The notes under the pieces were generated by a model. The model was given only the letters and a program-made list of their open reading frames with translations. It had not been told where the DNA came from and ran no database searches. This document shows, piece after piece, positions 1 through 21,813 of a DNA stretch of 64,000 bases (position 1 is the stretch's first letter; each line of letters opens with the position of its first letter). Origin of the DNA: Thuidium tamariscinum (lineage: Eukaryota; Streptophyta; Bryopsida; Hypnales; Thuidiaceae); NCBI GenBank assembly GCA_947034885.2, contig OX344751.2, positions 41,631,082 through 41,695,081 on the forward strand, in the 5' to 3' direction. Position numbers and translations under genes: made by a program.

Positions 1-120
1 TTATGACCTGGTTGGCACACAGCCATTGCACTAGAGTGAAGTCCAAGAAGAGTGTGTGGGAGGAACACTTGCTGTGAAAGCAGTAAATGTTATTTCCACA
101 TCACATCCAAACTGAATACT

Positions 121-140
121 AACCTGTTTTGTTTGTGCAG
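121..140 (+). other. Likely 3' splice acceptor before the transposase-like frame
   Basis: A pyrimidine-rich stretch ends in gtttgtgcag, 26 bases before the chosen ATG. The frame stays open between the AG and the ATG, so the protein could begin in an upstream exon. The bases before this (1-120) contain no convincing coding exon that I can support. Confidence 0.45.
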
Positions 141-166
141 TTTCAAGTGAAGAACCAGTGGGAGCA

Positions 167-3100
167 ATGGGAGGGGGGAGGACACAATGGGAACCCTGGT
201 ACAGGCTACAAGAGGATGGGAAAGTGGAATGCAAGTTCTGCAAAGCGAAGATTAGTTACCGCAAGGATCGCTTGCTTTTCCACTTGGGTTATAGACGAAA
301 TGACACCCTCCCCGGAGTGAGAATGTGCAACAAGGCCAGTGCAGCAGTGAAGGCTATGTTTTTCAATTGTGGGGGGAATGTTCCTACGGTCTCCGAAGAC
401 GAAGAGGAACATGATGTGGAAGTGACATCACCGTCATCGAATCCAACGAGGGTGGTACGTGATCAAGAATTACCCAATGCTTCAATCTCAATTAGTGGAG
501 GGGGAGGAAATACTTTGGGCCAAAATTCTCAAGTTCGATCATCAGAGGCGCCTGTCCCTTCTTCGACCCATAGTCGACCGCTGAGGCAATTATCCGTACA
601 AGAAGGGATGGACACATCCAAAAAGCAAGTACTAGACAAGAAGTGGGCAAAGTTTTTCTACGAAGCAAATATCCCATTCAATGTGGTGAGACACCCCGCT
701 TTTGTGGATGCCGTGAAATCAACCTCCGAGTCCAGAGTTCTTTACAAACCTCCACCTTACAATGCCATACGTACGAAGCTCATGACATCAACAAAGGAGG
801 AAGTGGCTGCACTGGTAGCGGAGAAGACAAAGGGGCCTATCCACAAGTACGGTGTCACTATATGTTCTGACGGATGGGACAATGTCAGCCATCGGCCATT
901 GATCAATGTAATGTTGTCGTGCACGAGTGGAGAAGTATTTTTGGGATCGGTGGACACTACAGGCGAAAGCAAAGACACTGTTTATGTGGCTAATCGCATG
1001 ATCGATTACATTGACGCGGTGGGGGGACAGAATGTGGTGCAAGTTTGTACGGACAATGCGCCAAACATGCGTTTGGCTGGTACTCAAATTACTCGCGAAT
1101 TCCCTCACCTATATTTCCAAGGTTGTTCCGCGCATGCACTTGACCTTCTACTTGAAGATTGGGGCAAGCAACTTTGGGTGGTCAAAATAGTGAAGAAAGC
1201 AAAATCAATCGTGAAATTCATTCGCACGCATCACATGCCACTCGCCATTTTCCGACGACATTCTCCTAACCTCATGTTGAAGAATCCCATTGAGACACGT
1301 TTTGCGACCATGTTCCTCATGATCGAGCGTTTGGCCGAGGTCAAGGAAGCCGTAGAATCTACAGTCCATGATCCGCAGTGGAACGAATATGTGAGGTCCT
1401 CGAACGCTGCAATACACAATAAGGCAGAAAAGGTTCGACGTAGGGTTCGAAAGGACGAGTTCTGGAGGAGGTGTCTCAACTTTGTGCATATGGTAGAGCC
1501 TGTGTTGGTGGCTCTTCGAGAGTTTGATGGAAAACATCCGGTCATGGGCAAAGCATGGATCGTGATGAAGAAGCTAGAAAAGCATGTTTTGGCTTTGAGG
1601 AATCGACCATTTTCATTGGAGGCAAATTATGCGGACCGTGTTGAATACGCGTTTTACGAACGATGGGATTTGATGAAGACTGATTTGCACTACGCAGCTG
1701 CCCTGCTCAATCCATTCCTCCTTGATGAAATTATACTAATAGACGATAACGAGGCAAAGGAGGCCATTCTTAGAGTACTACGCAAATTGGCAGTTGGAGG
1801 GTTGGGATATGCAGCCGCTTTGTTTGAGTACCAATCCTTTCGAGACCGCCGAGGCATGTTCGCTGGACTTCCCGATGTGAATACTTTGAATTTGGAGCCG
1901 CATGAATGGTGGGATCTTCTCGGAGCCGCTGCTCATACGCTTGCACCTATTGCAAGAAGGATCCTCGCACAAGTATGTTCCGCATCATCATGCGAACGCA
2001 ATTGGAGCATGTACTCATTTGTCCACAGCAAGTCTCGCAACAGATTGACATCTGAGCGCGCGGAGGAATTGGTTTACATTTATACCAATTCGAGGACTCT
2101 CAGGGAAAGGGGTGCGGCGGATGCAGCACGATGGTACACTGAGAACATGTTGTCCGAAGATTCCATGACAACCGAATCAGATGGCTTGGATCGTGGTTCG
2201 GTTATGTCAGACGCTAACAACGATGACTCAGACGACAGTTCCAATGGCGATGATGATCCACCATTTCGGCCTTTGGGTGAAAGGCAAGAAAGGGGTCCCC
2301 TAATTGACGAGTCCGTATTTGACTTTGATGGCGCAGATAATGATGGAAATGACCACGGGGGAGATGAGGATGGAAATGACAACGGGGGAAATGATGGCAG
2401 TCCGTCATGGATGCCACATACATCGATTGCGGGGTCAAGTGGTGGAAATCAAAACGAAGGGGTTGAAGCCCCACCTTCGCCGGTTATAGGGCCGATTGAA
2501 GAAGAAATGCGTACCCGGAGACATGAACATGTCGTTGTGGTAGAAAGACAAGGCGAAGATGAGGTCGTTGCCACAGATCCCCCAGTGGCGCGGAACACTC
2601 GTAGCCACAGATCCCCCATTGGTGTCGAGATAGACTTTCGCACATTGCGTCGAGACACGATCGGCGTGCGACCACAAGCGCCTAGCTTGGATGATCCACC
2701 CGTCCAAATTTCAGCACGGCCTTCATCTTCTAGAGTCCGCCCCAACCAAGAAACTCCATCAGTCGGTACACGATTGGCCGGTCTCTTCCCAACTCTAAAT
2801 ATGACCGAGCGAAGGAATGCACCTCCATCCTCAGAACAACCCGTTGCACCGCCTACACGCACTACTAATCGACGCCCGCGGCCACGTGAAGAAAGCCCTA
2901 CCAATGAACGAGTGAGTAGAAGAACACGTAGAAGGCTAAGAAGGGAAGAAGCGGCGAGTATACCATTTCTCCGCGAAGGTCTTCTCCCTGGACCGACGGG
3001 ACCCAGTGTGGATACCGCTGGAGATGGAGTAGGAGGGCGAACAATCCGCAGATTGGCTTCTATAGTAGGTGAAGGCTCAGACAGCCCTGACAACTCACCA

Positions 3101-3301
3101 AGCGAAGTCGGTAGGGCAACGTCCAATCATGATGATGAATCCATGGGTCCTAGTATAGGTGAAGATGGTGAAGTTCCGGGAGATAGTGATTATAGAGGGA
3201 CTCGTAGAGGTCCTCCACCTGCACCTCAAGACAATCAAGCAACCACGCGAGAGGCTGCTGCAAGGAGCATGGCTCCTAATCGTACACGTGCAAGACGTTG
3301 A
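167..3301 (+). CDS. hAT-superfamily transposase-like protein (BED finger, DUF659, hAT dimerisation)
   Basis: Long uninterrupted frame of 1044 aa from the ATG at 167. In-frame codons extend upstream to a likely splice acceptor (tttgtgcag ending at 140), so a short 5' exon probably lies before it. Near the N-terminus C22, C25, H39 and C54 resemble a BED-type zinc finger. A DUF659/RNase H-like core follows, with acidic residues in CSDGWD (D235) and CTDNAP (D296). The hAT C-terminal dimerisation block is around 585-650 with the signature SSCERNW (E610), so the three expected DDE-type acidic residues are present. Residues 660-1044 are a long low-complexity tail, Asp/Asn/Gly-rich then Arg/Pro-rich, which most hAT transposases lack. 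No hAT terminal inverted repeats or 8-bp target duplication are visible, but the left side may be outside the window. It could be an autonomous transposon or a domesticated derivative. Confidence 0.88.
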   Translation: MGGGRTQWEPWYRLQEDGKVECKFCKAKISYRKDRLLFHLGYRRNDTLPGVRMCNKASAAVKAMFFNCGGNVPTVSEDEEEHDVEVTSPSSNPTRVVRDQELPNASISISGGGGNTLGQNSQVRSSEAPVPSSTHSRPLRQLSVQEGMDTSKKQVLDKKWAKFFYEANIPFNVVRHPAFVDAVKSTSESRVLYKPPPYNAIRTKLMTSTKEEVAALVAEKTKGPIHKYGVTICSDGWDNVSHRPLINVMLSCTSGEVFLGSVDTTGESKDTVYVANRMIDYIDAVGGQNVVQVCTDNAPNMRLAGTQITREFPHLYFQGCSAHALDLLLEDWGKQLWVVKIVKKAKSIVKFIRTHHMPLAIFRRHSPNLMLKNPIETRFATMFLMIERLAEVKEAVESTVHDPQWNEYVRSSNAAIHNKAEKVRRRVRKDEFWRRCLNFVHMVEPVLVALREFDGKHPVMGKAWIVMKKLEKHVLALRNRPFSLEANYADRVEYAFYERWDLMKTDLHYAAALLNPFLLDEIILIDDNEAKEAILRVLRKLAVGGLGYAAALFEYQSFRDRRGMFAGLPDVNTLNLEPHEWWDLLGAAAHTLAPIARRILAQVCSASSCERNWSMYSFVHSKSRNRLTSERAEELVYIYTNSRTLRERGAADAARWYTENMLSEDSMTTESDGLDRGSVMSDANNDDSDDSSNGDDDPPFRPLGERQERGPLIDESVFDFDGADNDGNDHGGDEDGNDNGGNDGSPSWMPHTSIAGSSGGNQNEGVEAPPSPVIGPIEEEMRTRRHEHVVVVERQGEDEVVATDPPVARNTRSHRSPIGVEIDFRTLRRDTIGVRPQAPSLDDPPVQISARPSSSRVRPNQETPSVGTRLAGLFPTLNMTERRNAPPSSEQPVAPPTRTTNRRPRPREESPTNERVSRRTRRRLRREEAASIPFLREGLLPGPTGPSVDTAGDGVGGRTIRRLASIVGEGSDSPDNSPSEVGRATSNHDDESMGPSIGEDGEVPGDSDYRGTRRGPPPAPQDNQATTREAAARSMAPNRTRARR

Positions 3302-3682
3302 GAGCATCTAGGGAAAAAAATGTCTCCATGTCATCTTATGTAATATTGTGTAAGGCTGAATACCTTGCATGTGAAATTCGGCATTAATTATAAATACTAC
3401 ACATGCTTCCTGTGCTCATGTAGGGCGCATGGGTAGAAATTTTTTATCTTCACATGTCACAAATTCTACAACGCAACAACGGATCCATTTATGGATATTT
3501 GTCCCAAGAAATGGAAATATTTGCTTTGTCGTTTGCCATGTGTTCTATACTCTTAAATTTGGATTCATTCTTCGAAACTGGTTACCTACATGCTTGGATA
3601 TTTTGAGATCATTATGAATTTTGCCATGTACAAGAAAACAAATGTAATCTGGAATATGGAGAAAATGATTGAAAGTACTGAA
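3302..3682. other. 3' flank of the transposase-like gene
   Basis: AT-rich sequence between the stop codon and the first TTAA-flanked element. It probably contains the 3' UTR. I see no further coding region here; the 62-aa frame at 3429 has no recognisable features. Confidence 0.4.
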
Positions 3683-3686
3683 TTAA

Positions 3687-4605
3687 CCCCTAAAGGACCA
3701 AGAGTCCCCTCGGGGAACTTTAAGAATTAGGGCAAGTACTTGTGACTTCAATTTTTAATGAATTTTATTGAAATTTTCACATAAGATAAAAAAACTGATT
3801 AGCTCCGTGGAAATATTCATTTTTTTTCAATTGGTGACCGGGAGCAAAAGTTATGCCATCATAAACATTATTTTTATGTTGCCGGGCAGAAAAAAAATCT
3901 ACAGAAACTTCAAAATTAAAAAAATAATTTTTTTTCTTATAGATTATATTTTTGTCTACAAGTAAAGCTTTGATTCATTCCATTTGGATTAGTAATGTGA
4001 AAGTTATGAACAATCTTGTTTTTCGGGCAATCTAAGCATCTTCTTGAAAAAATAACTTCTAGGATTCATTTGTGAATGCAATTTCCACAATTTAAAAAAA
4101 AAAATTGTTGGACAAGGTTGATTTTGTTTTCTAGAACAATCTCACCATTGGGATTATTGTGTTTCAATTCCATCTATGAGATATTTGCAATTTAGTTTTT
4201 CTTTCAATCTTGGACCTACATCTACTTGACAATTTTTTAAAGAATGACAAAAAGTCTTTATTTTGTGAATTTTTTTTCCTAAGCTCTTAGCTCAATTTCT
4301 CAATAAAAAAATTTTAATTCAAGGTCTGTAGTGCAAAAAGATTACATAAATGGAGGACAAAGTCATTTGAAGTTGCAAACTAGTGTTTAAGAAAACTTTG
4401 TTTTCCAACTTTGAATGCTCATATCTTCCTATCTATACGGTCAAACTTCATGAAATTTTCACCACATCATCTTAGTTAAGTAAAGTTCAAGATCCTATGG
4501 TTAGATTCTAAAAATTTAGTTTTTTTTGTTTTTCATGGATGAATGGAACAAAAATGGCAGTTTTGAGTGGTTTTGGGTTGAAAAACGGCCGTGGTCCTTT
4601 AGGGG
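3687..4605 (+). mobile_element. piggyBac-like MITE, 919 bp, TTAA-flanked (copy 1)
   Basis: The ends are inverted repeats, CCCCTAAAGGACCA on the left and TGGTCCTTTAGGGG on the right. TTAA lies directly outside on both sides (3683-3686 and 4606-4609). TTAA target duplication with termini beginning CC is the hallmark of the piggyBac superfamily. The interior is AT-rich and non-coding, so the copy is non-autonomous. A second copy in reverse orientation lies at 36306-37220 and matches along its whole length by eye. Confidence 0.85.
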
Positions 4606-4821
4606 TTAACATGGCATTCAGTCCAAAATTTACGAAGGGACAGAACTACTCACAAATCCACTCACCGGAATCATACTCGAATGGAACAAAAAGATTTACA
4701 TATATTTATTTCAAAAAGGAGTTAGTACAAAATTCAGTGACGCAAAGTTCGTGGACTATACTGTGGTAAAAGCAAGTACTAAGGTACGTCTACGATTACA
4801 TTGCCACTAAAATACTATTCT

Positions 4822-6483
4822 CTAATCTTCATTCCTTGCTTGTTCTTGTAGAAGTACTTGCTCCTTGCGGGCCTCGCGGTAGCAATCAACGGGTGGAGTC
4901 CAAAATAAGGGGGCGCCACTAATTCGTCCCACGGCGTACGTTACCGTGCGTCGTTGTAGTGGGTCCTCTTTGCACAATTCGCCCAATGTGGCTTGAAATG
5001 TACCAAACGCTGTATGGTCGGGAAGCATTTCCGTATTTTCGCGGTCTTTCTTCCATATCTTCTCCGCAAGCTTCCCAACAGCATATCCGTCTGTATGTAT
5101 ACTAACACACGGTGCCCCATCTGCACGAGTGGGGGATACCGAAGTGCCCGCCTCTCCAGGAACATACATCAATTCAGGGGCCACCCACCAACGTTTCTGA
5201 CGTGTAGCCCGCATTTGGCTTGCACATTGAAACTGGTACAAAGAATGGGTTTCTTCATTGATACGACTAGCCATTCCCCAATCACATAGCCCAATCCACA
5301 CTGTTCGCCCATCATCATTCGGAAAATGCAACATGATGTTTTCTGGCGTGATGTCGTTGTGGAGCACCGAAGATTGTTGCACCGCATCCACGATGCAAAT
5401 TAACGCCCATGCAAGCTCGGTGCGGTTTCTACGATAAGCCAAGAGTCTTTTGGCTTCTTGCATCGTCTGTGGAGTTGCATGGTAGGCAAGCTCCCCGATC
5501 TCAGCATAATCTCGGTTTTTTTGGTCCAATGCGAACATGGCTCCCAATGTTCCTCCATTCCACCATTGAGAATAACACTCCATGGTCATGTCATTTATAG
5601 CAAAAAATTTTATGACCCCTGGATGATTACATGGACAAACCAAAGCCTCGATGGACAACTTCTCCCGCGACTTCTTCAATTGATCCACATATAGGGCTGT
5701 CTTGCCCGCCAATTCCATCATGGGGGGAATGTGCCTTGAATTTTGGAGGCTCACTTTACGCACCCTCCCGTGCCCCCCTTGTTTGTTGTGGCCTGACAAT
5801 GGAACCACCACCACTCCTCGTTCAAGAAATACCACTCCTCCCGCACCCGCTTGGCCTAGGGACAAGCTTTGGCTCTGCTGAAACCATGGGGCAGAGCGGA
5901 TATTGCTGGAAGACAGCGCTCGCATTGCGTCATGCCACCAATACACCTTTTTGTGCAACAAATGCAATGCTTGTTGCTTCGGCGCTACATCTCGTTTGAA
6001 GCCCTTTACCGATGCGGCGACTTGGGCGATGTTGAAAACACAAGTTTGCACTTGTTCGTCAAGCCAACGACGGAAGTGTTCCTTTGTGCGATCTTCAAGC
6101 CACTCATCCTCGCCCATTGTTGTCCAAAACATGTGGGTGAATTTTTTTTTAATTGTCTCCACCCCTTGCAATCCACGCGAGACGTAGGTCGTATTCAATT
6201 GAGCAATCGTATATTGCTCCAAAAAATCCAATGCCACTTCCTGCACTTTCCTGGTCGCAGCCTTCCTTGGCCAGTCGTCTGTATTTGTAGCCTTGTGCCT
6301 CCGCCTGCTCTTTTTTTTCTTGGCCCCCGAAGATTCTCCTCCAGCCGCACCACTGACCCCTTCTCCGGCCAATACTGCCTCTGATACGCAGTCAATGGAT
6401 TCTGGAGACTGCTCACCAACAGGATCTCCGATGCCTGAAAACCACTCATCAACCTTGCGCTTCGACGCACCTCGCCCGTCCAT
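4822..6483 (-). CDS. Divergent protein-kinase-like protein
   Basis: Single coding exon of 553 aa. The ATG (6481-6483) lies one base after a strong acceptor, tttttttcag, so a non-coding 5' exon is likely. Residues 50-65 are basic (KKKKSRRRHK) and could be a nuclear localisation signal. Residues 75-190 form an unrecognised, probably helical region. A kinase-like domain spans about 255-520: HNDITPEN in the catalytic loop (HRD becomes HND, D377 kept, N kept), CDWG in place of DFG (D401) and VAPELMY in place of APE (E437). I see no clear glycine-rich loop or VAIK lysine, so activity is uncertain and it may be a pseudokinase. It converges on the transposase-like gene and has higher GC than its surroundings. 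A TATA box at 6679-6685 supports transcription from the minus strand. Confidence 0.72.
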   Translation of the reverse strand: MDGRGASKRKVDEWFSGIGDPVGEQSPESIDCVSEAVLAGEGVSGAAGGESSGAKKKKSRRRHKATNTDDWPRKAATRKVQEVALDFLEQYTIAQLNTTYVSRGLQGVETIKKKFTHMFWTTMGEDEWLEDRTKEHFRRWLDEQVQTCVFNIAQVAASVKGFKRDVAPKQQALHLLHKKVYWWHDAMRALSSSNIRSAPWFQQSQSLSLGQAGAGGVVFLERGVVVVPLSGHNKQGGHGRVRKVSLQNSRHIPPMMELAGKTALYVDQLKKSREKLSIEALVCPCNHPGVIKFFAINDMTMECYSQWWNGGTLGAMFALDQKNRDYAEIGELAYHATPQTMQEAKRLLAYRRNRTELAWALICIVDAVQQSSVLHNDITPENIMLHFPNDDGRTVWIGLCDWGMASRINEETHSLYQFQCASQMRATRQKRWWVAPELMYVPGEAGTSVSPTRADGAPCVSIHTDGYAVGKLAEKIWKKDRENTEMLPDHTAFGTFQATLGELCKEDPLQRRTVTYAVGRISGAPLFWTPPVDCYREARKEQVLLQEQARNED

Positions 6484-6678
6484 TCTGAAAAAAAATATGC
6501 GATGGTAAAACCAAGGAATTAGGGTTCAGTACTCACAAATGTGAAAACTATCCCCCCTTCCTCAGCCGAGCCTCCTCGCAAGCACCCGCGCTCCCAAGCA
6601 AGGACTGCAACCAATCCAGGGCAAGAGAGCACCGTCAGAGCAGGAGAGACTCGTGCAGAGTGGGGGACCTGGCCCACC

Positions 6679-6685
6679 TTATATA
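6679..6685 (-). promoter_or_regulatory. TATA box of the kinase-like gene
   Basis: Read on the minus strand the sequence is actatataagg, about 195 bases upstream of the ATG. The GC-rich CCGTC array begins only a few bases further upstream, so the array abuts the core promoter. Confidence 0.6.
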
Positions 6686-6689
6686 GTCG

Positions 6690-7135
6690 TTGGCGAGCCG
6701 TCGCATGGACGGCCGATCCGTCCAAGGAACTCGAAAGCCGTCGAGGGGTGTCGGGAACTCCGAGACCGTCGAGGGGACGCGCTGAAGCCGTCGAGGGGAA
6801 TGTCGAGGACGATGAGGCCGTCGACGGGACGCACCCATCCGTCCCGGGAATTTCGAAGTCGTCGTGGGGACCGTCGAGGAATTGCGAGACCGTCGAGGGG
6901 ACGCGCTCGCCGTCCTCAGAATTGGGAAGCCGTCGAGGGGAATGTCGAGGACGATGAGGCCGTCGACGGGACGCACCCATCCGTCCCGGGAATTTCGAAG
7001 CCGTCCAGGAAACCGTCGAGGAACTGCGAGACCGTCGACAGGACGCACAAGCTGTCCTGGGAATTCGGGGGTCCGTCGTGGAACGAGGCCGTCCACGCGA
7101 CCCCACAGGGCGTCCCGGGAATTCTGAACCATTAA
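6690..7135. repeat. GC-rich CCGTC array 1 (upstream of the kinase-like gene)
   Basis: A dense series of CCGTCGAGG, CCGTCCAGG and related motifs in otherwise AT-rich DNA. A 75-bp segment at 6784-6858 recurs without change at 6926-7000 (offset 142). All six frames are largely open because the composition excludes stops, so the long overlapping frames here are not genes. It lies directly upstream of the kinase-like gene's TATA box. Confidence 0.85.
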
Positions 7136-7199
7136 GGGGATCGTCGGGGAAGCACAGGGCGGTGAAGATGCCAGCGAAGACTTAATGGCAAGCCTCGTG

Positions 7200-7310
7200 C
7201 AACTGAAATTCCTCTACAAGGTAATAAGGTAACAGGCCAGAAACCGCCCATCTAAGGGCTGACACTGAATTTTGAGAAGGTCAAAAACCCAGCCTAAAGC
7301 CCTTGCCCAA
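7200..7310 (+). repeat. Left-end fragment of a GGTA-type MITE
   Basis: The segment catctaagggctga-cactgaatttt resembles the left part of the TTAA-flanked MITE at 47927-48251 (catctaagggctgaaactgaattt). No matching right end is seen, so this is probably a truncated copy. Confidence 0.4.
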
Positions 7311-7325
7311 CCGAAGGTTTTAGGA

Positions 7326-7357
7326 TTTAGGGTTTAGGGTTTAGGGTTTAGGGTTTA
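7326..7357 (+). repeat. Interstitial telomere-type repeat
   Basis: Four perfect tandem TTTAGGG units plus a partial fifth. This is the plant telomere unit, here inside AT-rich sequence upstream of the kinase-like gene. It may come from break repair or act as a telo-box-like cis element. Confidence 0.9.
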
Positions 7358-8585
7358 AGTTCCTTTTTACTTTTGCGTAAATGAGGGTAAAATGTCTAGT
7401 TTAGTAATTTAATAACTTAAGAAGTGCATTATAATTTGTATTCGGTAATTGATCTTTATTTTCCTAGCGTCAATCTAATTTTGCAAATTTTGAAGTAATT
7501 AAAAGAAATAACATGAAATGATTAAACTTATTGGTTCTAGTCTAAACACATACCTCTTCGGTTGATGCGTATCCGTTCTCAGTTGTGTCGTCAAAAAGCT
7601 CTACTTCCTCCCTTTCCATCTAATTTCATTCTCCCCCGTAAATTTAGGAAATAGGAGCTAATTTTAATAATTTAATCCGGCTTAATTAGCATTTGCTATT
7701 TGATGGTCACACTATAACTCCTTGAGGAACTTAAATCATTTCCGTACAATGACTTTGCCTAAATCTAATTCAAGCGTACATACATCTATTTTACAAAATG
7801 GGGTCACATAAAATGCCTAATTGAATTCTTCAACCCAATTATATTGTTGTAACTTACTAGGAATCTAGGATGTTTTTTGGTATGAAAGATGTGCATATAG
7901 ATGTTTCCTACATATCTCCTCTTTGCAAATTAATGCTAATTCATCACCAATGTTTTATAATCAATTATCATGCTAAACCATGAGTTTTGAATGAAACAAT
8001 TCACCAAATACTGAATTTGACTTATGTGAAATCCACATTTGGTATGCTTGATTATATTATGCAAAATTTGTTTCAATGGCAGAATTGGATGATCCTAAAC
8101 TTGTTGGTGGGTAGTGTGTAATGTACACGGCTAAAATTTTACATTGCCTTCCAGTGCTTCATCTCATATCGAGAATGGCTGAAGTGATGGACCCTAAATT
8201 TTAGAAGTTGCCCTACGGATATGTAGGGATTTAAACTTCTCAATTTTAAATTCGGGAGCCATCCGACTAGGCATGTATTTTTTAGGAAATTAGATTAGTA
8301 CTACATGTACATATTAGTATATTACTATATTGCATAATATTCTGGTCATGTAGTCATGTACTCTACTTATGAGTTATGAAACTATGAGTTATGAAAGTAT
8401 AAGTGAATGGCGAGCACTAATTAGGAGTTTAGGACGGGGGCACTGGCAAGCAAGACTCCGTTAGTGGGCACCAACCAATTTTCAGAATTCAGACTCTTCT
8501 GCGGAACCCTAAACCGCTCTAATCCTCTCTTTGCCGAAGTGTATGATAAACCCTAGAAGAAAGAGTTAGAATTCCGCAAGTGTGT
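7358..8585. other. AT-rich intergenic sequence
   Basis: No coding frame, RNA gene or repeat with clear ends is visible in this stretch. Confidence 0.5.
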
Positions 8586-9000
8586 TAATGGTTTGAACCA
8601 AAAATACACGTCAAAGGGTTAAAAAAGTTACCCCAAAAAAATATAGAAAGGGTTTGGAAAGAAATTGTCGAGCCCTGTTCGAATAAAAAAAATGTGGAAA
8701 TGGGTTGGAAAAAAATGTGTTAATGGTTCAATTAAAAAAAATAGGGAAAAGGTTTGAATCCCCAAAATGGAAGTGGTGTGAATAAAGCAAAACGTTAATG
8801 GTTTCGGGTGTTGGGCAAAAATATATAGAAGGGATTTGGACCAAAAAATGGGTTAATGGATCGACTAAAAAAATATGGAAATGATTCGGTTTGGAAAAAA
8901 ATGTGGAAATGGTTTGAATAAAAAAAATGGGAATGGTTTGAATAAAAAAAATGGGAAAGGTTTGAATAAAAAAAATGGGAATGGTTTGAATAATAGACTT
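8586..9000 (-). repeat. A/T-rich tandem array, left copy
   Basis: Degenerate repeats of about 24-25 bases built around ggaaatggtttgaa followed by a run of A, alternating with variants containing ttaatgg. It is the reverse complement of the array at 14380-15600. The open frame on the minus strand (HSHFFYSN repeats) is only a translation of the array. Confidence 0.8.
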
Positions 9001-10577
9001 GGGGGTTCACCCCCTTTATCTTTTGGTAACCACGTGCGATAATGGGGTATTTAATGGGGGGGTATTTATGTCCTTCTCATGTTTTTTTCCCTCCCTATTA
9101 GTAGAATAAAGCTACCGGAGTGTATTTTAGAGTACCCTATTTTCTTTTGTAAATTCTTTGAAGGACTATTTTTGAACACCCTATTTTTTTTCTACATTTC
9201 ATAATTACAAAATATTGAGAAGATCAAAAACATTGTATACAAGGAAACATGTGAGCTTCAAGGATTTTGATGAACTAAGAACATGGTGAAACGCACAGCA
9301 TATGCTATCTATATGCCACTAAAGAGTTTGAAAATCAAAAATCAAAGCTACAACTATTTATATTTCACCATTTATAAGAAAACAAAGCACACAATAGAGA
9401 AATTAAACTATAGTATACAATCCTAATTAATGCAATATTTAAAACCAATTTAAAGGCACAAGAGCATATTCACATTCATTTATATAATAAGGAAAACTTA
9501 GGGAATTTAATAAGCCGATTGTGTTTAAAAACACAAGTATCAGTAAGTCTGCAAATCCATTCTAACATTTAAAATGAAGAAGTTCAAGGACCTCTTGCTC
9601 TCAAATCAACTATTATGGTAGGAAGCTCACACGGAGGTTAATAAACTATGCAGGCTTTTTTATCTGCTTAATAGGACTATAGGAGGGTCTGAAATCTGAA
9701 TTGGAAAGCTCATTGTGAGGAAACTAATTGTGGATTATATTGAAGCATGCTAAGATTTGATTTTTACTATATGAATGGATGGTTTTAGAGTTACAATGGA
9801 TTCAATCGTAACTAAGTGTACTTATAGGTGTCTACTAATTTTATTCAAAATAAAAAATGGTTGTTAAACTACCTTCTTTCAAATGTGAAATTGTTTTGAA
9901 ATAATGATTAATTGAAGAATTCATTTCAGATTTTGAAAGGGACACATTTAGAAACCATTTCAAACCATTTTTTACATGTTGCATTACTAGTTTATTCACC
10001 AAACCAGATTCTTTTAGAAACTGTGCATGTATAGATTTTCAAGGCTTACTGATCACAAATAGGGTCCTATGACAAATTGTGTTTGAAAATTAATAATTAA
10101 TTCAATTTTTCTTCCAAAAAATATGAAACAACTTGTATTAGATTCCTCATCTATTTCTCCTTGACTGAAAAATAAACTAAAAATATTTTCATCTAAAGAC
10201 ATACACGAAAAAGGCAAATCAACTCTTAATTTAAATAAGTGCAATCTTTGCCTCCTACCATGCATACATGGCTAACACACTTGTCACAATCATGAATCCC
10301 AAAAAAATTTAAAAAGAAATACAAGATCTGAATGAGTCACGCACTTGTCACAACCATGAATGAATCCCAAATTTTTTTAAAAAGAAATGCAAGCTGTGAA
10401 TGTTAACTCACTGAGCTCCAATAAAAATTACAGTATACAGGTACTGCATTGGCAATCTTCACCAGTTCACCCACATTAAAATTCTGCTGTCTTACAGCTT
10501 ATTGCATCTCAACTGCCTAAATGAATACCAATTGCGTAATTGGATCTTGGCTGTCTAATTGGATTCCACCTGCCTAA
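9001..10577. other. AT-rich intergenic sequence
   Basis: No supported gene. A short near-repeat (cacacttgtcacaatcatgaatcccaaa and its variant, about 10276 and 10340) suggests a small local duplication. Confidence 0.45.
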
Positions 10578-10604
10578 TTGAAATTCAGTATATATTGGGC
10601 CCAC

Positions 10605-10740
10605 CTATTGGGCCCGTCCAGGACCTGGGCAGGCCGTCACGGGGACGGAGAGCGTCCAGAAAACCGTCCAGGACCAGGGCAGGCCGTCACGGGGACGGAG
10701 GGCGTCCCTAAAACCGTCCAGGAAGACGGGCCTGTCGAGG
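10605..10740. repeat. GC-rich CCGTC array 2, left part
   Basis: Two units of about 55 bp containing gggcaggccgtcacgggg and the motif gcgtcc-gaaaaccgtccagg. The array continues at 10982 after a MITE insertion, where the same unit resumes in the same orientation. Confidence 0.8.
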
Positions 10741-10981
10741 ACGGCCAGGGAGGACTGACCCCTCTATTGCCCCTTTTTTACCCTTGTAGAAAATCCTGGA
10801 ATTTCTTTTATTTTTCACACAAATTCTTTTTTGCAAATTCTGAATTCTTATTTGGAATCAGAGACCTCGATTTAGCTAGGGGACGTGTTGAAATCTAAAA
10901 TTTAATCGGCACAAATTAGGGGGGAATTTTTTACATTTACCCTCCGGAGGGGCAATAGAGGGGTCAGTCCTCCCTGGCCGT
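10741..10981. mobile_element. 241-bp MITE inserted in the GC array
   Basis: Perfect terminal inverted repeats of 34 bp (left arm 10741-10774, right arm 10948-10981; ends acggccaggg and ccctggccgt). The loop is AT-rich, about 170 bases. The flanks CGAGG (10736-10740) and CGAGG (10982-10986) look like a 5-bp target duplication. A diverged relative with the same loop lies at 28350-28610. The superfamily is not certain. Confidence 0.78.
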
Positions 10982-11395
10982 CGAGGCCCTGGGCAGGCCG
11001 TCACGGGGACGGAGGGCGTCCAGAAAACCGTCCAGCAACACGGGCCCGTCCAGGACCTGGGCAGGCCGTCCACAACGAATTTGGCTGCGGGCCGGAGCGT
11101 CGACCTGTCCGGGCAGGCTGTCCACAGCGGAACAGTGGCCGTCCAAGACCACGGGCAGGCCGTCACGAAGAGCCATTTTTGGCCATCGAATTTGCAATTC
11201 GGCGGAGTAATTATGGATTTTCGAACTCATGAGTGTTTTCGAACTCGTTGACGGCGCCGGACCTGTGGACGGCCTCTGTGACGTCATCCCGAAGCTGTCG
11301 ACGGCCTCCCGAACCTCCGTCGACGCTCCCTGGACGCCCCAGCCGTCGATGGCCGTCCGCATCAACGGCTCCAGGTGGTGCATGGCGATGTGATT
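10982..11395. repeat. GC-rich CCGTC array 2, right part
   Basis: Continuation of the array interrupted by the MITE, with gggcaggccgtcacgggg units followed by looser CCGTCGACG motifs. It ends about 45 bases before the TATA box of the RING gene. Confidence 0.8.
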
Positions 11396-11437
11396 AGACA
11401 CAAATTAACACTCCTAACGAGGCTTGGTAATGGGGAG

Positions 11438-11444
11438 TATAAAT
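11438..11444 (+). promoter_or_regulatory. TATA box of the RING gene
   Basis: The sequence gagtataaatccc lies just downstream of GC array 2 and about 200 bases before the chosen start codon. This mirrors the arrangement at the kinase-like gene. Confidence 0.55.
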
Positions 11445-11645
11445 CCCAAATTCAGCCACAATTAACCTTGCTTTCTCTCTTGAGTTGCTCTGTCCTAGCT
11501 TGAAAAAAGCTTTGCATTGCAATTCGGGAGGAAGTCAAGCATTTGGCTATTGCTTTGCCACATTCCAGTTGCCCTCACGCAACAAGAGGCAGAGTATAGT
11601 CATCTGTACATACACATCCGTGTTGTGGCATTGTGTGCAGGTACT

Positions 11646-14009
11646 ATGGCCTTAAACCCACTAGAGATGGTAATACATGTGGAGAACCCCCCCATGGCAG
11701 AGAACCAGGAGGTGGTAGTTCCTGGAAATCACCCCCCAGTGGTAGAAAACCAGGAGATGGTAACCCATGAAGGTGAACCCCCACACAGGAGGCGTCGTGG
11801 GAACAGGAGCACTGTAGACTGGGCGACTTTCAACACTGGAGAAGTTTTGGCCGGGCACGGGTGGGAACAGGCGCTTGAGCCATGGACCCACACCACATGT
11901 CAGAGATACGTGGACTGGGCCCACATCAACCGCCATTTTCCACGGGAGAGAAATGAGACGCAAGTGCGATCTGGCGTTGCATTGATCAAGTATTGCGTAC
12001 ACCCAACGTTCAAGAAGCGGTTGACCGAGGTGGCATTGGCACTTTGGGGGACCCTCTCGAAGAAGGATGGGACCCTCGCATTGTGTCAAATGGCGTATGC
12101 GGAGGTTTTTTTGGGCAAGGACTTGGATTGGAACACGTATCCGGCTAAACAACGGGGCGGCCGTTTCCCTACTAAAAGCCGTAGAATTCCACCAAATCCT
12201 GAAGTGCAATTGGAAGGCGAAGGAGTGGCTGGGGCACAAGGGGACGAAGCGGCGGCCGCGGACCCCATGGAGGTCGACAATGCACCTCAAGGCGCCAACG
12301 AACAAAATCCGGTGGCTCCCGAATTGGAGGCGCCCATTGCCGGTCCAAGCGAGCCTATGCCACTCGCCATTCACCCAATTCCCCCGTCTATGACAATTAA
12401 TGAAGTATTTGGAGCAAATGGGGAATTAGAGGCATTACGTGCATTGGTGATTAAGCTGCGTGAGGATGGTGCAAAAGCTGAGCGAAGGCACGAGATGGAG
12501 GTACAAGCCCACAACGCACAAGTGAAGGCTTTGGAGGAAACGAATGCTAAGTTACTAGCAAGTAACATTGACTTGCTTGAACGTGAACGTCGCCAAAGCA
12601 CGGATGGCACTCCACCATTGGATGAGGTCGTGGAGCGGGCCACATATGGTCTAATTGAGCCAGCTGACCCATTGACGGTGCGCCGGGTGCGGCCTCATGG
12701 TATATTCCCAACACCACATTTTCGTGGTGAGAGTTCAAATGCGGCAACCCAATCAACAGATGCATTGGGCCAAGAGTTCATAAGCGTTGAGCGCGTGGCA
12801 TACGATGCCCTTGTGGCACGAGCGGAGCGTGCAGAGGGCGAGTGCAATGAGGCCAAGGCCAACATGGAGACTGTATCAGCGGCTTTGGAGGGACTACAAG
12901 ACGAGTTGGCATTTGTAAATGCCATGAAGGATAGATTGTTGCAACAAACGTCAACTACGAGGGAGCAAAAGTTGCTTGCCATGAGCAACATGAGATTGGC
13001 ATGCACTTTGGCTATGAACGAGGTCGCACAACTGCAGCGTGAAGTCAGGAGAATAGCTGCAGAATTTAGAGATGGTAGCCAACGTTATTTTGGCTTGACA
13101 TCGTGGGCCCGACTGGAGGATATGTTTCCAGTTACATTGCCCCAAAATCGCGATAATGCAAGCATTGATTGGGACGGGCATCCGCATCTAGACTTCCAAT
13201 TCAACACCGCGAGATATCGATACGGGCCTGTGGATAGAGAAGGCAATGCCCCCTTACTGTGGCCCATAGTTCCCGAGTTTGTGAAGGATGGAACGACGTG
13301 TACGATTTGCATGGAACCGTTTGGACCCGAAGGTGGATTTTGCCTTGGAACGTGTGGACATATGTACCACCCCGGATGTCTCATTCCGCACATGGTCACA
13401 AGAAAGCGGTGCGCACAATGCAAGGCTCCTTTGCACCGGCGGTTGTACGTCCAATTTGGGTTGGAGGATTACATGCCCCCACACTTCGAGTTGAACGAAG
13501 AGAACTTTCCTGGCGATGAGAATAGAGGGAGTTGGGGTAATGACATGATATGGATGTGGAAGTGGGGCCATGACAGTAGACACCTCGCCGTGCGCAGCGT
13601 GCAAGACATTCCGTGGAACGATGATGCGGAGATTACGGAGGTGTGCAAGAAGCTGATTAGTGCGGGCGATCCAGGGCGGCGAGTATTTTTTGGCCAACTT
13701 GCTGGTGGCCATTGGGACTTGGACCGACAAGAGTTCGTGCGCCAACCACATCCAGAGAATGTGGTTTTTGACTCCAGTGGAAATCCTATCGGAATACTCC
13801 AAGACATGGATCATGAGGCACAAATGAGGTTCATCGAAGACACTACGTTCAATGAGGTGCAAATGTTGTCAACCATTTCTTCCTACTTGCACGATCGATA
13901 TGATCGGACCGTAGTGGCTACGTTGAACAGTTTGCAATCTAGAGAAGGATTGCAAGATTTTTTGAGAAATAGTATAGGCAGAGGCATTGTAGAACCAGAA
14001 CAAGGTTGA
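11646..14009 (+). CDS. Coiled-coil RING-H2 protein, probable E3 ubiquitin ligase
   Basis: Single coding exon of 787 aa from the ATG at 11646. I chose this start because a splice acceptor (ttgtgtgcag) ends at 11640 and the frame upstream has no ATG. The N-terminal part (about 30-150) is an unrecognised domain rich in Trp and His. Two coiled-coil stretches are predicted by heptad pattern, from nucleotides about 12420-12600 and 12800-13075. A RING-H2 finger follows (13299-13430): CTIC, then CGHMYHPGC, then CAQCKAPL, giving the C-C-C-H-H-C-C-C ligand order. The last 190 residues hold no recognised domain. RING-H2 proteins usually bind an E2 and transfer ubiquitin; the substrate is unknown. It is flanked by two A/T arrays in opposite orientation. 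Confidence 0.82.
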   Translation: MALNPLEMVIHVENPPMAENQEVVVPGNHPPVVENQEMVTHEGEPPHRRRRGNRSTVDWATFNTGEVLAGHGWEQALEPWTHTTCQRYVDWAHINRHFPRERNETQVRSGVALIKYCVHPTFKKRLTEVALALWGTLSKKDGTLALCQMAYAEVFLGKDLDWNTYPAKQRGGRFPTKSRRIPPNPEVQLEGEGVAGAQGDEAAAADPMEVDNAPQGANEQNPVAPELEAPIAGPSEPMPLAIHPIPPSMTINEVFGANGELEALRALVIKLREDGAKAERRHEMEVQAHNAQVKALEETNAKLLASNIDLLERERRQSTDGTPPLDEVVERATYGLIEPADPLTVRRVRPHGIFPTPHFRGESSNAATQSTDALGQEFISVERVAYDALVARAERAEGECNEAKANMETVSAALEGLQDELAFVNAMKDRLLQQTSTTREQKLLAMSNMRLACTLAMNEVAQLQREVRRIAAEFRDGSQRYFGLTSWARLEDMFPVTLPQNRDNASIDWDGHPHLDFQFNTARYRYGPVDREGNAPLLWPIVPEFVKDGTTCTICMEPFGPEGGFCLGTCGHMYHPGCLIPHMVTRKRCAQCKAPLHRRLYVQFGLEDYMPPHFELNEENFPGDENRGSWGNDMIWMWKWGHDSRHLAVRSVQDIPWNDDAEITEVCKKLISAGDPGRRVFFGQLAGGHWDLDRQEFVRQPHPENVVFDSSGNPIGILQDMDHEAQMRFIEDTTFNEVQMLSTISSYLHDRYDRTVVATLNSLQSREGLQDFLRNSIGRGIVEPEQG

Positions 14010-14379
14010 ATACCTTCTGGTGATGAGTTAGGCCATTAGACGGATGTATAGTATATTAGTATTGTAAATAGTATTTGGCTATGACGACCATTTACGAGCG
14101 TTTGTTGCTCATGTTGCAAAAGTACATTTTTTGGGCAATGAAGCATTTTCATTTTTCTCGTACAACTGTATTGTTTGTTAAACACTTAAACTGAAAACTT
14201 AACCATGAACAAATGAAAAGAATACTCAATACGTTTGCTTGAAATGTATGTGCAACAAGTTCATTTAAATCCAATGCCATACTTTCACTTAAAGTAGATT
14301 TTGTAAGTTCACTTTTAAAAATTTCCAAAATTCTATTTTTTACATATGCCACAAGTATATATGCTTTTGTTTTTGATTC
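14010..14379. other. 3' flank of the RING gene
   Basis: AT-rich, probably the 3' UTR and polyadenylation region. Nothing else is recognised. Confidence 0.4.
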
Positions 14380-15600
14380 CCACCATTTCGAATTTTTTTA
14401 ATCAAACCATTAACCCAAGTTTTTCCCACCGCATTTTTCCACATTTTTTTTTTCCACATGTCAAACCATAACCATTTTTTTACCCTAACCCATTTCCATT
14501 TGTTAGATTCAAACCCTTTCCATATTTTAGATTGAACCCATTTCCATATTTTTATTAGTCGAACCATGAACACATTTTTTTAAACCATTTCTATATTTTT
14601 TTGTCGTCCACATTTCAAACCATCAACGTTCTTTTTTATTCAAAGCATTCCCATTTTATTGATTCAAACTATTTCCAATTTGAGCCTTAACCATTAAGGC
14701 ATTAACATTTTTTTTCCAAACCATTTCTAAATGTTTTTTATTCAACATTTCAAACCATTTCCATATTATTTTTAATCAAACCCTGAACACATTTTCTTTC
14801 CAACTTATTTCCATATTTTTTTTAGTCAAACCATTAACACATTTTTTTTCACGACCCTTTCTATAAGTTTTTTTCCAACCTTTCAAACCATTGCCTTTTT
14901 TTTTATTCAACCCATTTCCATATTTTTTTTTTATTCGAAGCATTTTCATATATTTTTTAGTCGAAACATGAACACATTTTTTTTCCAAACCATTTCTATA
15001 TTTTTTTGTATTCAACATTTCAAATTATTAACTTTTTTTTAATTCAAAGCATTTCCTTTTTCTTTTTCTTTGATTCAAACCATTTCCATATTTTTTTTAG
15101 TTGAACCATTAACCCATCTTTTTTCCAAACCATTTCTATATTTTTCTTTCTAACACCCTATACCATTACCGTTTTTCTTTACTCAAAACTTGGCCATTTT
15201 TTTACCCTAAACCATTTCCATATTTATTCTAGTCAAACAATTAACACATTTTTTCTCCAAACCATTTCTAAATTTGTTTTTCCAACATTTCAACCCATTT
15301 CCATATTTCTTTTAGTCAAACCCTAATCACATTTTTTTCCCAACCCATTTCCAAATTTTTTTGGTCGAGCCATTAACACATTTTTTTCCAAACCCTTTCT
15401 ATATTTTTTTTTCATTCAACATTTCAAACCATTAACGTTTTTTTTATTCAAACCATTTCCATAATTTTTTTATTCGAACAATTAACACATTTTTTTTCAA
15501 AACCAGTTTTACATTTTTTTTTATTCACAATTCCAAACCATTAACGTTATTTTCATTCAAACCATTTCCTTTTTTTTGATTCAAACCACCAAAACCTTTT
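14380..15600 (+). repeat. A/T-rich tandem array, right copy
   Basis: About 1.2 kb of degenerate repeats based on aaaccatttccatatttttt, alternating with gaaccattaacacatttttt and caaaccattaacgttttttt. Subunits are about 24-25 bases, with hints of a longer period of four or five subunits. It is inverted relative to the array at 8586-9000. It is satellite-like and non-coding. Confidence 0.85.
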
Positions 15601-15764
15601 TTTTAAATACAAAATATATATTATATTTAGACTATGGAAGGCCTAAAATACAAAACCATGGGAAATTATTTTTTGAGAGATGGTTAAACCTCATAGACTA
15701 ATGAGAAAATTTTGATTGCGAATATGAACTCAGACTTTTAAGTCTTACAAATAAAGAGTTCCAG

Positions 15765-16235
15765 TCCACGGAGCCCAGGCCGTCCATCCTGACCGTCGAC
15801 GGCACGGCCAGGCCGTCCATCGAACCCAGGCCGTCCAACCTTCCTCTCAATCCAAGCCGTCCTTCCCAAGCGTAGACCGTACCCAGACCGTCGATCTGGA
15901 GGCGTCCGTCCAGGCCGTCCACTGGACGTCCTGTCCATCGGGGCCGTCCATACCCCGCGAGCGGGGCCGTCCCCTAAAACCGTCCACCGGATCCGGACCG
16001 TCCGCAGAACCCAGAGTGTCCATCCAAGCCGTCCAGTCAGCCAGGACCGTCCATCGGAACTGTCCACCGAGCACGTCCTTCCAGGCCGTCCACGGAGGTC
16101 GTCCGTGAGGGCGTCCACGACCGCTGTCACGATTTTTCATCCTCTGTCGCGGATTCTGTCGTGAATTTCATCCTGACGGACGCTCGGCTCCCCGTCACGT
16201 CAGCGGACGGACATCCTGACGGACGGACGTGACGC
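15765..16235. repeat. GC-rich CCGTC array 3
   Basis: More than twenty CCGTC motifs, mostly in the forms ggccgtccat and gaccgtcca, ending in gacggacggacgtgacg. Unlike arrays 1 and 2, no coding frame follows it closely on either strand. It may be a remnant promoter array or simply part of the repeat. Confidence 0.8.
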
Positions 16236-16657
16236 GACGGAAGCAACCCTGTTCACAAGTCAATTTTTTTGACATATATCTTCACAAAAGTCTAATTTCA
16301 AAAGTCCTATCTCTTTGTATAGACTCATATAAATTTAGAGTTTGTTCATTTTTGTGATCACCATATATTGTTGTTGATCAACAACTAACTAACTAAATGA
16401 AAGGGACCAAGCTAGAATACTAGGACTTGAATTGGACCTGAGAGATTGAAAATAATTTGTACAAATTAAACATTCTTAACACAATTATTAATCATTTTCA
16501 CCAATAAGTTGATTGCAACCTGGTTGTTTATGAATTCACCATGAAAAAAATGGTAATCATAGAGTTTAGGTAGTTTACCATAATCCTCAATTGGACCATT
16601 CCCACCACACAAGTACGTACTACACTCTGTTTCATTGCCATGATGACATTCAACTCT
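16236..16657. other. AT-rich intergenic sequence
   Basis: No gene or repeat recognised. Confidence 0.4.
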
Positions 16658-16873: not shown

Positions 16874-17500
16874 TGAATATAATGTTGTTCGAGAATGATG
16901 AACAAGCATTAGAGAAAATATCGACTCTCCAGAGGGCCGTCTAACTTTGATAAGCCGGTCTATATAAGGATTTCTGTTTTAGCTTGATTTTTGTGTAAAG
17001 TGCCCAATTCCTGATCGGAGATGCGGTTCAACTTGTGTGAATATCTTCACTGCCACGCAAATTAAATATGTCAATTTTTACAGCTTTCATCCAATGAAGT
17101 TGAAGAGCTCATATTTCGAAGCTCTAATGTTTGGCTGCACTGTTGAGTGCATGACACTTGTCTGTCACAGCTATAGGAGAAATTTTTGCCTCATACTAAA
17201 TAAATGGAATGAGGATCCTTTTTGCCACTTCTTAGCGGCCCTCTAATGCAGTTGTCCAGATTTTCTCTAATGCAGTTGTTCCTCACACAAGAATTTCAGG
17301 CTAAGAGTGTAGCTTTCCAAAGTTTCATACTCAGTAAGAATTTTAGTCTAATTTCCCATTTGCACTAGCTGAAAATTCCCGTCAGTCAGTTAGCGAGGAT
17401 TCCACGCCTGTGCATGATCCCCATCGACGTTGGTCATCAGGACTTGGACGACTGGGACTTGGAATAGTGAGCTCGATCGACAATGACTCCCGAAAAACAC
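16874..17500. other. Upstream region of the pectate lyase gene
   Basis: Mostly AT-rich, becoming GC-richer towards the TATA box. No separate gene is supported. Confidence 0.4.
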
Positions 17501-17513
17501 TGAAACCGGGAGG

Positions 17514-17521
17514 CTATATAA
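17514..17521 (+). promoter_or_regulatory. TATA box of the pectate lyase gene
   Basis: The sequence ggctatataaccacg is followed about 30 bases later by a CT-rich leader typical of plant transcription starts. A long intron-like stretch separates it from the ATG: candidate donor ggGTACGTG at 17638, candidate acceptor gtgtgcAG at 18752 or ctgaccAG at 18778. Together they suggest a 5' UTR intron of about 1.1 kb. Confidence 0.6.
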
Positions 17522-18794
17522 CCACGCGTGGGTCGTCTCTTCCGCCTTGTCTCTCACCTCCTCTCTTCCCTTGGTGGGCTTGCTCGCTTCCGCGCGTCTC
17601 CGGCCCTGGCCGCTCCGATCGATCCTCTCGTTGTTGGGTACGTGCTTGGACTGCCCTTCTCCTCCTTGCGATCGACATCGTTTCGATCCAATCTCATGTA
17701 TGTTACTATGCATATGAATCGTTTCGGTTGTTCTCTTTTCGATTCACGGGGAGGGACGGGATCGGAGAGACGGAGACTGGTTATTTAGAATTGCATTGCA
17801 ACTTGCTCGTGCTATCTGGACGTGCATGTTTGGATGCTGTAGTATTACGACTGCATGTTGGCTTTTTGTGTTTGACGTTTGTGTGAACGGGAAACTCGAG
17901 TCCAACTCTGGCAAATTAGGACACGCCAATGAAGGTTCGATTTTCTGCCAAAAGTACGGTTTTAAATCGATAGGGGGACCAACTTTCCTCCGAAGGGCGT
18001 GCTTTGTACAGCGTGCCTGTAGGCCAGGCTACCCATTGATCGGAGAAGTTATGCCTGCGCGCTAGCCTGCTGTAATCTTGTCATCTCACGTTCGTCTAGC
18101 TCGTTTGTATACAGTTCAGGATGTTTAGATACGATGATGTCAAGGCTTCTGCTAACATGTTTCTTTAGTTCCTTGCTTTTGAAGTATGTGTTGTTTGGCG
18201 CCTTCAATTGTATTTCAGTATTGCGTAATTAACAAACCTGATTTCTGTCGAAGCTCGACGTACTGTATATGTACCTTTTCGGAAAGTGTTCCAGCCGGAG
18301 GATAGAGAGTCGATCCGGCGTCTCAGCTTGAACTGCTAACAGTCTTATCTTTTACGTATGCTATTCGATAGTCTTATCTATTACGTATGCGGTTCGATCG
18401 TACGTCCCCTGGTATCGTATCTCGATGCAGACGATGGATGTGTGAAGCATTTCCGGTCCTGTACATCGATCGGTGTTCCTTCGACCGGTGTTCGAGTCTT
18501 CTAACATAATCTGAAGTGCATTGGTTTACTACGAACATCTGACTGTCTTGAACTGAAGTGCCTTTAGTTCGATCAGCACAACATGATCTCTCTTTTCGCT
18601 AACGCCGCGAAAGTCTGGAACTAGCACTAACTGGTTTATCAATTGCTGGGGAAAGCTTTCAACTGCAGTAAGTACTGCCGATGTTCCTTCTGCAAATTAA
18701 AAAGCTACGACGGATTTACATTCAATCATGGAATCTACTTTTCGGTGTGCAGTGTGAGTTTCCCTGAGGACTGACCAGCTGGTCGGCAACGAAA

Positions 18795-21714: not shown

Positions 21715-21813
21715 CTGCCTGTAACGAGATCGATTCAGTAGCTAGTCTGACCAAGCGAAGCCAAGCCATGATATTGTGAGCTTATCTGCAGCTTCTTCGG
21801 AGGAAGTTGATAG

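Follow-up and report, generated by a model that had tools for sequence, protein, structure and literature searches.

A giant hAT-type transposon with kinase-like and RING-H2 genes in the moss Thuidium tamariscinum

We analysed a 64,000-nucleotide stretch of the Thuidium tamariscinum genome (assembly GCA_947034885.2, contig OX344751.2, positions 41,631,082 to 41,695,081 of the forward strand), hereafter the window, which belongs to contig C3 of the 363-Mb assembly with 19 contigs. Three long adjacent frames near its start encode a transposase, a protein-kinase-like protein and a RING-H2 protein. They lie within a giant, recently mobile hAT-type cut-and-paste transposon, with over a hundred copies in the genome, in which the kinase-like and RING-H2 genes are cargo.

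The element and its copies

A preliminary description, made from the letters alone, had reported three neighbouring frames of 1044, 553 and 787 amino acids that are richer in GC than the surrounding DNA and start within 26 bases of a 3' splice acceptor. The positions proved exact, and the other features were also found. In 1-kb bins, GC content is 0.47-0.56 over the three frames and 0.31-0.41 in most bins separating them. The ATG lies 26 (transposase), 1 (kinase) and 5 (RING) bases past an intron-like AG, the introns being predictions read by eye. The description had also treated positions 121-14009 as one block. The three genes do form a unit, but these bounds are too narrow, as the unit runs from -822 to 16251. 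Its features are as follows.

1..16251 (+): in-window part of the hAT-type element, from alignment to four other copies, its ends and its target site duplication (TSD); the first 822 bp lie upstream (L009:9179-10000)
16244..16251 (-): right terminal inverted repeat (TIR), CAACCCTG; the left repeat, CAGGGTTG, lies 822 bp ahead of the window
16252..16259 (no strand): right TSD copy, TTCACAAG, 8 bp, with an identical copy immediately 5' of the left end
167..3301 (+): hAT transposase with a DUF659 domain, 1044 amino acids (frame list, Pfam, Hermes alignment)
4822..6483 (-): protein-kinase-like protein, 553 amino acids (frame list, Pfam, residues)
11646..14009 (+): RING-H2 protein, 787 amino acids (frame list, Pfam, alignment)
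83..140 (+): probable intron in the transposase leader, with a TACTAAC branch-point-like word and a GTGCAG acceptor, by eye
6485..6536 (-): probable intron in the kinase leader, by eye
11594..11640 (+): probable intron in the RING-gene leader, by eye

The element comprises 17,074 bp (window 1-16251 plus 822 bp upstream). It begins with CAGGGTTGTCTATCC and ends with CGACGGAAGCAACCCTG, and the perfect inverted repeat is 8 bp long. We compared the window and 20 kb upstream of it with four other copies, on C5, C1, C6 and C11. All share the block from -822 to 16251 in pieces that are 94.6-99.6% identical, and their flanks are unrelated; in the C11 copy the aligned pieces begin at -146 and the left end was read separately. 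Because four copies match across the unit while their flanks are unrelated, the case for a mobile element goes far beyond chance. The final base is altered at the end of the C6 copy. Three of these other copies carry 8-bp TSDs (ATGAAATG, GCATGAGG and ACCCCATT), and an exact 8-bp TSD was found in five of the six elements examined, including one from the second family described below. Duplications of 8 bp and ends of this type are hAT features. The window element has neither CACTA ends nor a 3-bp TSD.

The first pointer to a mobile element came from a 401-bp transposase probe, which matched 40 places at 99-100% identity (40 scored of 156 candidates). The left end (22 bases, up to two mismatches) occurs 363 times genome-wide and the right end (25 bases, up to two mismatches) 304 times, and the reversed patterns used as a control do not occur. 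These end counts are whole-genome totals, whereas places from genome searches are the best 40-150 matches and thus lower bounds. To pair ends, we took the 69 of 100 listed exact left ends located up to C4:21.46 Mb, the limit of the right-end list, and all 100 listed exact right ends. Partners were found for 47 of the 69, leaving 22 unpaired. The spacing of the 47 pairs (14 at 841-929 bp, 31 at 15.5-19.1 kb and one each at 20.7 and 32.7 kb) indicates two size classes, full-length elements and derivatives that lack room for the genes. The 841-929-bp derivatives, such as C1:21365676-21366547, contain little beyond both ends and were likely moved in trans.

A search for homologues of the trio within 20 kb of each other, suggested in the preliminary description, found a RING gene near 128 of the 142 listed first-family kinase places, in 127 cases on the opposite strand as in the window. 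Reciprocally, a listed kinase lies within 20 kb of 128 of the 142 listed first-family RING places. Both counts come from short queries with deeper lists, and eight second-family matches were excluded from the kinase and the RING lists each. Earlier, shorter lists with 78 kinase places had given RING within 20 kb at 48 (all on the opposite strand; 0.49 expected by chance), DUF659 at 61 and both at 42. Homologues that never occur together were to have spoken against a single unit. The outcome is the opposite, with kinase and RING mostly together. The suggestion of one large mobile element is thus borne out by the inverted ends, TSDs at five of six elements, hundreds of ends and kinase-RING co-occurrence.

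Proteins encoded by the element

The transposase-, kinase- and RING-like labels of the preliminary description agree with Pfam. The transposase matches PF04937 (2.6e-36, 125 bits, cut-off 34.7) and PF05699 (1.2e-9, 38.3 bits, cut-off 21.4), and the Pfam scan of the three proteins found no MULE transposase family. D235, D296, C320xxH323 and E610 align with Hermes (2bw3) at residues that we take to be catalytic, and they are invariant in two relatives. The match to 2bw3 is weak (whole-protein E 2.8e-4, with no single stretch significant alone). A PDB sequence search at E 0.01 retrieved four Hermes chains with the transposase and three RING fingers with the RING protein, and gave no match with the kinase.

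The kinase-like protein matches PF00069 (8.8e-9, 35.6 bits, cut-off 31.7) and has an N-terminal region with no family match. K261, E279, HND377, DWG401 and APE are present in the sequence, of which K261, E279, D377, D401 and APE are presumably the kinase-active residues. The aligned second-family kinase keeps them except for the APE glutamate.

The RING protein matches PF13639 at 5.7e-6 with 26.9 bits, just below the cut-off of 27.3, and its finger aligns with RNF24 (2ep4).

13299..13421 (+): RING-H2 zinc-ligand run C552, C555, C570, H572, H575, C578, C589, C592, the eight ligands being assigned by eye

The N- and C-terminal regions of this protein have no family match and are conserved between families, and a low-confidence model predicts long helices in its middle. 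Judging by these residues, the kinase and RING proteins appear to hold what is required for activity. In a viral contig collection, a scan that reaches close relatives only returned no relatives of the RING protein and six pattern matches for the kinase, none of them confirmed.

Comparison with the C11 copy gave a pooled ratio of non-synonymous to synonymous change (pN/pS) of 0.45 (40 synonymous and 62 non-synonymous differences, Fisher p 1e-4) and 0.40 for RING alone (p 0.002). Pooled values against the C5 and C1 copies are 0.32 and 0.36. Constraint on the proteins is modest, and gene by gene it is clear only for RING.

A second family and the CCGTC arrays

A complete element of a second family, 21,108 bp long, lies at C11:9732127-9753234 (reached from locus L035). 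Its left end, CAGGGTTGTCTATCCCGACGTGA, differs from that of the window element at one of 22 bases, its right end is again CAACCCTG and its 8-bp TSD, GATTGAAC, is perfect. The gene order is RINGb (-, 757 amino acids, open), RINGa (-), kinase (+), transposase (+) and RINGc (+, 750 amino acids, open). When one element is inverted, the order RINGa-kinase-transposase equals that of the window element and only the orientation of the transposase differs; RINGb and RINGc are extra. Protein identity to the window element is 51.6% for the transposase, 57.6% for the kinase and 47.4, 38.3 and 37.9% for the RING paralogues. Since a diverged second family carries the same genes at 38-58% identity, the gene set is old and not the product of a one-off capture.

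The same layout, with DUF659, kinase, RINGa and RINGb at matching spacing, recurs at C11:4.51 Mb and C11:8.36 Mb. All eight listed second-family kinase places have at least one partner gene within 40 kb, and at three of these eight (C11:4.51 Mb, C11:8.36 Mb and L035) DUF659, RINGa and RINGb all lie within 10 kb. At both L034 and L035, on C11, the kinase adjoins the transposase.

C11 makes up 4.8% of the genome and holds 6 of 8 listed second-family kinase places, 7 of 8 for RINGa and 9 of 11 for RINGb. The first, young family is not concentrated there (8 of 142 listed places, 6.8 expected). One possibility is that C11 does not recombine or is a sex chromosome, and so retains old insertions.

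Six further DUF659 places were read in part, together with the kinase place L033, which holds a first-family kinase in three frame-broken pieces. Transposases 43% identical to that of the window (L027 and L029) have no kinase or RING gene in 21.2 kb at each locus, also when compared with RINGb and RINGc. No kinase or RING gene was found in 6 and 5 kb around two others (L036 and L037; 42% and 39% identity). For the 43% family (L027-L032), about 1.8 kb upstream of the ATG is covered. Its right end, taken from the point where two copies diverge, is also CAACCCTG, and its left end falls outside the DNA covered. We did not adopt it as a complete transposase-only element: cargo could lie further upstream, because the second-family kinase sits upstream of the transposase.

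CCGTC (or GACGG) forms four islands in the window element: one at the left end, one each upstream of the kinase and RING genes, and one at the right end. The left-end array, in L009, is at the same time the one ahead of the transposase gene, and it contains a 113-bp tandem repeat at L009:9344-9809. It differs between copies, with apparently about two units fewer in C6, by eye. The in-window arrays, found by word count and evaluated by a rotation test, and a telomere-like block recognized by its sequence are as follows.

6678..7177 (no strand): CCGTC array immediately upstream of the kinase gene, tandem units of 71/142 bp
10600..11427 (no strand): CCGTC array upstream of the RING gene, partly tandem, 50-bp unit
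15760..16251 (no strand): right-end CCGTC array
7315..7357 (no strand): (TTTAGGG)n telomere-like block beside the kinase array

The longer word GGCCGTC occurs 17, 4, 11 and 7 times in the four islands (39 in total), whereas the remaining 14.7 kb contains a single copy. The second-family element likewise has a high density of the CCGTC core at its two ends and ahead of each of its five genes. We defined array regions as 1 kb upstream of each ATG and 600 bp at the ends, with the left region of the window element reaching from the terminus as far as the transposase ATG. In both families, no other 5-mer is as strongly over-represented in these regions as CCGTC. The regions hold 98 of 114 sites in 21% of the length of the window element and 102 of 138 sites in 29% of the second-family element. 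When positions were rotated, 323 of 17,073 (window) and 322 of 21,107 (second family) rotations were equal or better, small shifts included. Both families thus have CCGTC-type arrays at the two ends and ahead of every gene. In the window copy, TATA-like words can be seen by eye between array and leader: one before the window, one at 6679-6686 (-) and one at 11438-11443.

The main repeat of the 43% family is of the GTCCGCGCCCTG type and occurs upstream of the transposase and at the right end, with none between. Its word CGCCCTG is found 16 times upstream, five times in the 380-bp right end and not at all in 4.45 kb of coding and 3' DNA; the whole window element holds three and the second-family element one.

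Several other features were observed at the locus. Telomere-like (TTTAGGG)n lies between the kinase and RING genes beside the arrays in both families (7315-7357 in the window and C11:9744303-9744323). An AT-rich minisatellite of the CAAACCATTTCCATATTTTTT type flanks the RING gene in inverted orientation, at 8676-8990 and 14472-15604. A short element is nested between the transposase and kinase genes, and the alignments of the C5 and C1 copies span it.

3683..4609 (no strand): TTAA-flanked short element of 0.9 kb with CCCCTAAAGGACC inverted ends, resembling a piggyBac-like miniature inverted-repeat transposable element, by eye

The transposon is inserted about 1.2 kb before a spliced gene at 17400-21720, a putative pectate lyase by eye from one exon frame. 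Further along the window, at 37373-42031 (-), adjacent frames encode a protein kinase, an NB-ARC domain and an extended series of leucine-rich repeats that are almost identical to one another. Their predicted products point to a resistance gene of the kinase-NBS-LRR type, or to parts of one; such genes have been reported in mosses.

Mechanism, alternatives and known systems

The locus represents a giant mobile hAT transposon with a three-gene cargo. We consider it probable that its arrays are read by an element protein, and its RING and kinase proteins would serve as accessory factors. One element-encoded DNA-binding protein, most likely the transposase, would read the CCGTC array. At the element ends, this reader would assemble the transposition complex. 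At the promoters, it would switch the cargo genes on or keep silencing away, so that the element would form its own regulon. We favour the transposase as candidate reader because no other of the proteins was found in the DNA covered for the 43% family, whose repeats occupy the same positions. The 0.84-0.93-kb derivatives, too short for genes and with both ends kept, also speak for it. The conserved N-terminal region of the RING protein is the second candidate. The accessory roles are weaker proposals. The RING protein might attach ubiquitin to a protein of the host or of the element, and the kinase might phosphorylate the transposase, the RING protein or a host factor. Together, these activities could let the element escape silencing or time its movement.

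More tentatively, the element could be a self-controlled transposon. A reader would couple transposition to the regulon, the kinase and the RING-H2 ligase would form a portable module that disarms silencing, and reader and array would co-evolve so that each family mainly controls its own copies. We regard this fuller scheme as possible but doubtful.

Several observations weigh against the proposed reading. The C1 copy, one of the six elements examined, lacks a matching TSD. Of the listed frames, 27 of 78 for the kinase and 11 of 57 for RING are interrupted by stops. Among the four fully compared copies, C6 carries a stop in RING and an insertion that breaks the transposase frame, and C11 has a 13-bp deletion in the kinase. 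The second-family copy is also broken (five stops in the transposase, three stops and a frame change in the kinase, one stop in RINGa). Broken copies are usual in any transposon family. At the protein level, the BED finger of the transposase, a candidate DNA binder, scores 12.4 bits, below its cut-off of 20.6, the kinase is divergent and the RING domain falls short of its own threshold, as noted above. AlphaFold models are too poor to use (mean predicted local distance difference test score 33.6 for the kinase and 42.3 for the RING protein). Constraint on the transposase and kinase taken singly reaches only p 0.055 and 0.079, and pN/pS of the C6 transposase is 0.71. The rotation test was not blind, as the density peaks were known before the rule was fixed. 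Moreover, of the 138 second-family sites, 14 cluster at V5 10751-11250, with the nearest gene start about 1.6 kb away, and 15 fall within coding spans. The 43% family holds CCGTC too (seven in the 380-bp right end, three upstream), which speaks against a clean motif switch. Finally, the regulon and the accessory roles are read from sequence.

The preliminary description had offered a domesticated transposase with kinase and RING partners as the other possibility. This fails because a domesticated gene would not show many closely similar insertions flanked by TSDs. The related idea that a domesticated host gene cluster was multiplied by segmental duplication has nothing in its favour beyond the adjacency of the three genes and is extremely improbable in view of the sharp ends, TSDs, unrelated flanks and hundreds of ends, including short deletion derivatives. 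We ruled out both domestication and segmental duplication on the ends, TSDs and flanks; the genes are neither single-copy nor free of TIRs and TSDs. A plain hAT element in which a host-captured kinase and RING gene ride along without a role is harder to dismiss, yet we think it unlikely. Plant transposons capture genes often (see the review PMC13317346), and the stops in kinase and RING frames would fit passengers. However, the same set occurs in two families at 38-58% protein identity, the second family has three RING paralogues of which two are open over 750 and 757 amino acids, pN/pS is below 1 and every cargo gene is preceded by an array of its own.

Somewhat less likely still is a composite origin, with a RING gene that is, or once was, a mobile element in its own right and inserted into the hAT. 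It would explain the paralogues and the nearby AT-rich repeats, which are similar and mutually inverted at 8676-8990 and 14.4-15.6 kb, and it fits the larger number of RING relatives among first-look candidates (983-1328, versus 364-635 for the kinase). Against it, RING lies inside the hAT ends in both families and has a listed kinase as neighbour at 128 of the 142 listed first-family places. The alternative that we take most seriously concerns the arrays themselves. They could be CpG-rich, methylation-prone or structural DNA, with islands tandem-duplicated from one source and no binding sites. The tandem repeats in the left (113-bp), kinase (71/142-bp) and RING (50-bp) islands and the variability of the left array between copies are compatible with this, and it is a real if minority possibility. 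But the units differ between islands and families while the CCGTC core is still the top word in both, and the 43% family has mainly another repeat at the same places. We retain the reading in which an element protein would recognize the arrays.

The transposase, ends and TSD make this a hAT element, with an apparently new cargo of kinase and RING genes. hAT elements are among the best-studied transposons; they are usually a few kb long with one transposase and have been thought of as one-gene machines. Like Ac, Hermes and Tol2, the window element has DUF659 and dimerisation domains, the C-x-x-H and acidic residues of Hermes, short TIRs and an 8-bp TSD. Unlike them, it and its second-family relative are 17-21 kb long with three to five genes. 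hAT elements are not known to carry kinase and RING cargo. A literature search also found no such case, which is weak evidence for an undescribed system as it used few terms and most subscription papers lay outside it. Starships and Teratorn, giant cargo-carrying transposons of other eukaryotes, likewise move extra genes as one unit, but with other enzymes, at larger size and in other hosts.

VANDAL/VANC of Arabidopsis and En/Spm/TNPA are the closest working models, although the element belongs to neither. As PMC5735166 describes, the anti-silencing protein VANC binds a short motif in dense, often tandem non-coding arrays where methylation is lost, related families use another motif and array repeat units are gained and lost. 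VANDAL thus shares with the present element a multi-gene organization in a plant DNA transposon and dense short-motif arrays with a motif that varies by family, and the difference in left-array units in C6 resembles its repeat gain and loss. VANDAL belongs to another superfamily with other genes. For En/Spm and CACTA elements, PMC2613891 describes TNPA, subterminal repeats that diverge between families, deletion derivatives moved in trans and a 20.5-kb soybean element. The repeated subterminal motif diverging between families, the deletion derivatives and the large size are common to both. CACTA ends and a 3-bp TSD there contrast with hAT ends, an 8-bp TSD and arrays at each internal gene here.

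If this reading is true, a long-lived lineage of hAT elements whose kinase and RING cargo is conserved and whose promoters and ends share a motif would be a multi-gene, self-regulating form of hAT. It would open two questions to direct test: by what means DNA transposons evade silencing in early land plants, and whether a transposon's own equipment can include proteins that modify or mark others. Copies that are nearly identical and have open frames suggest recent movement, so that study in living tissue may be possible.

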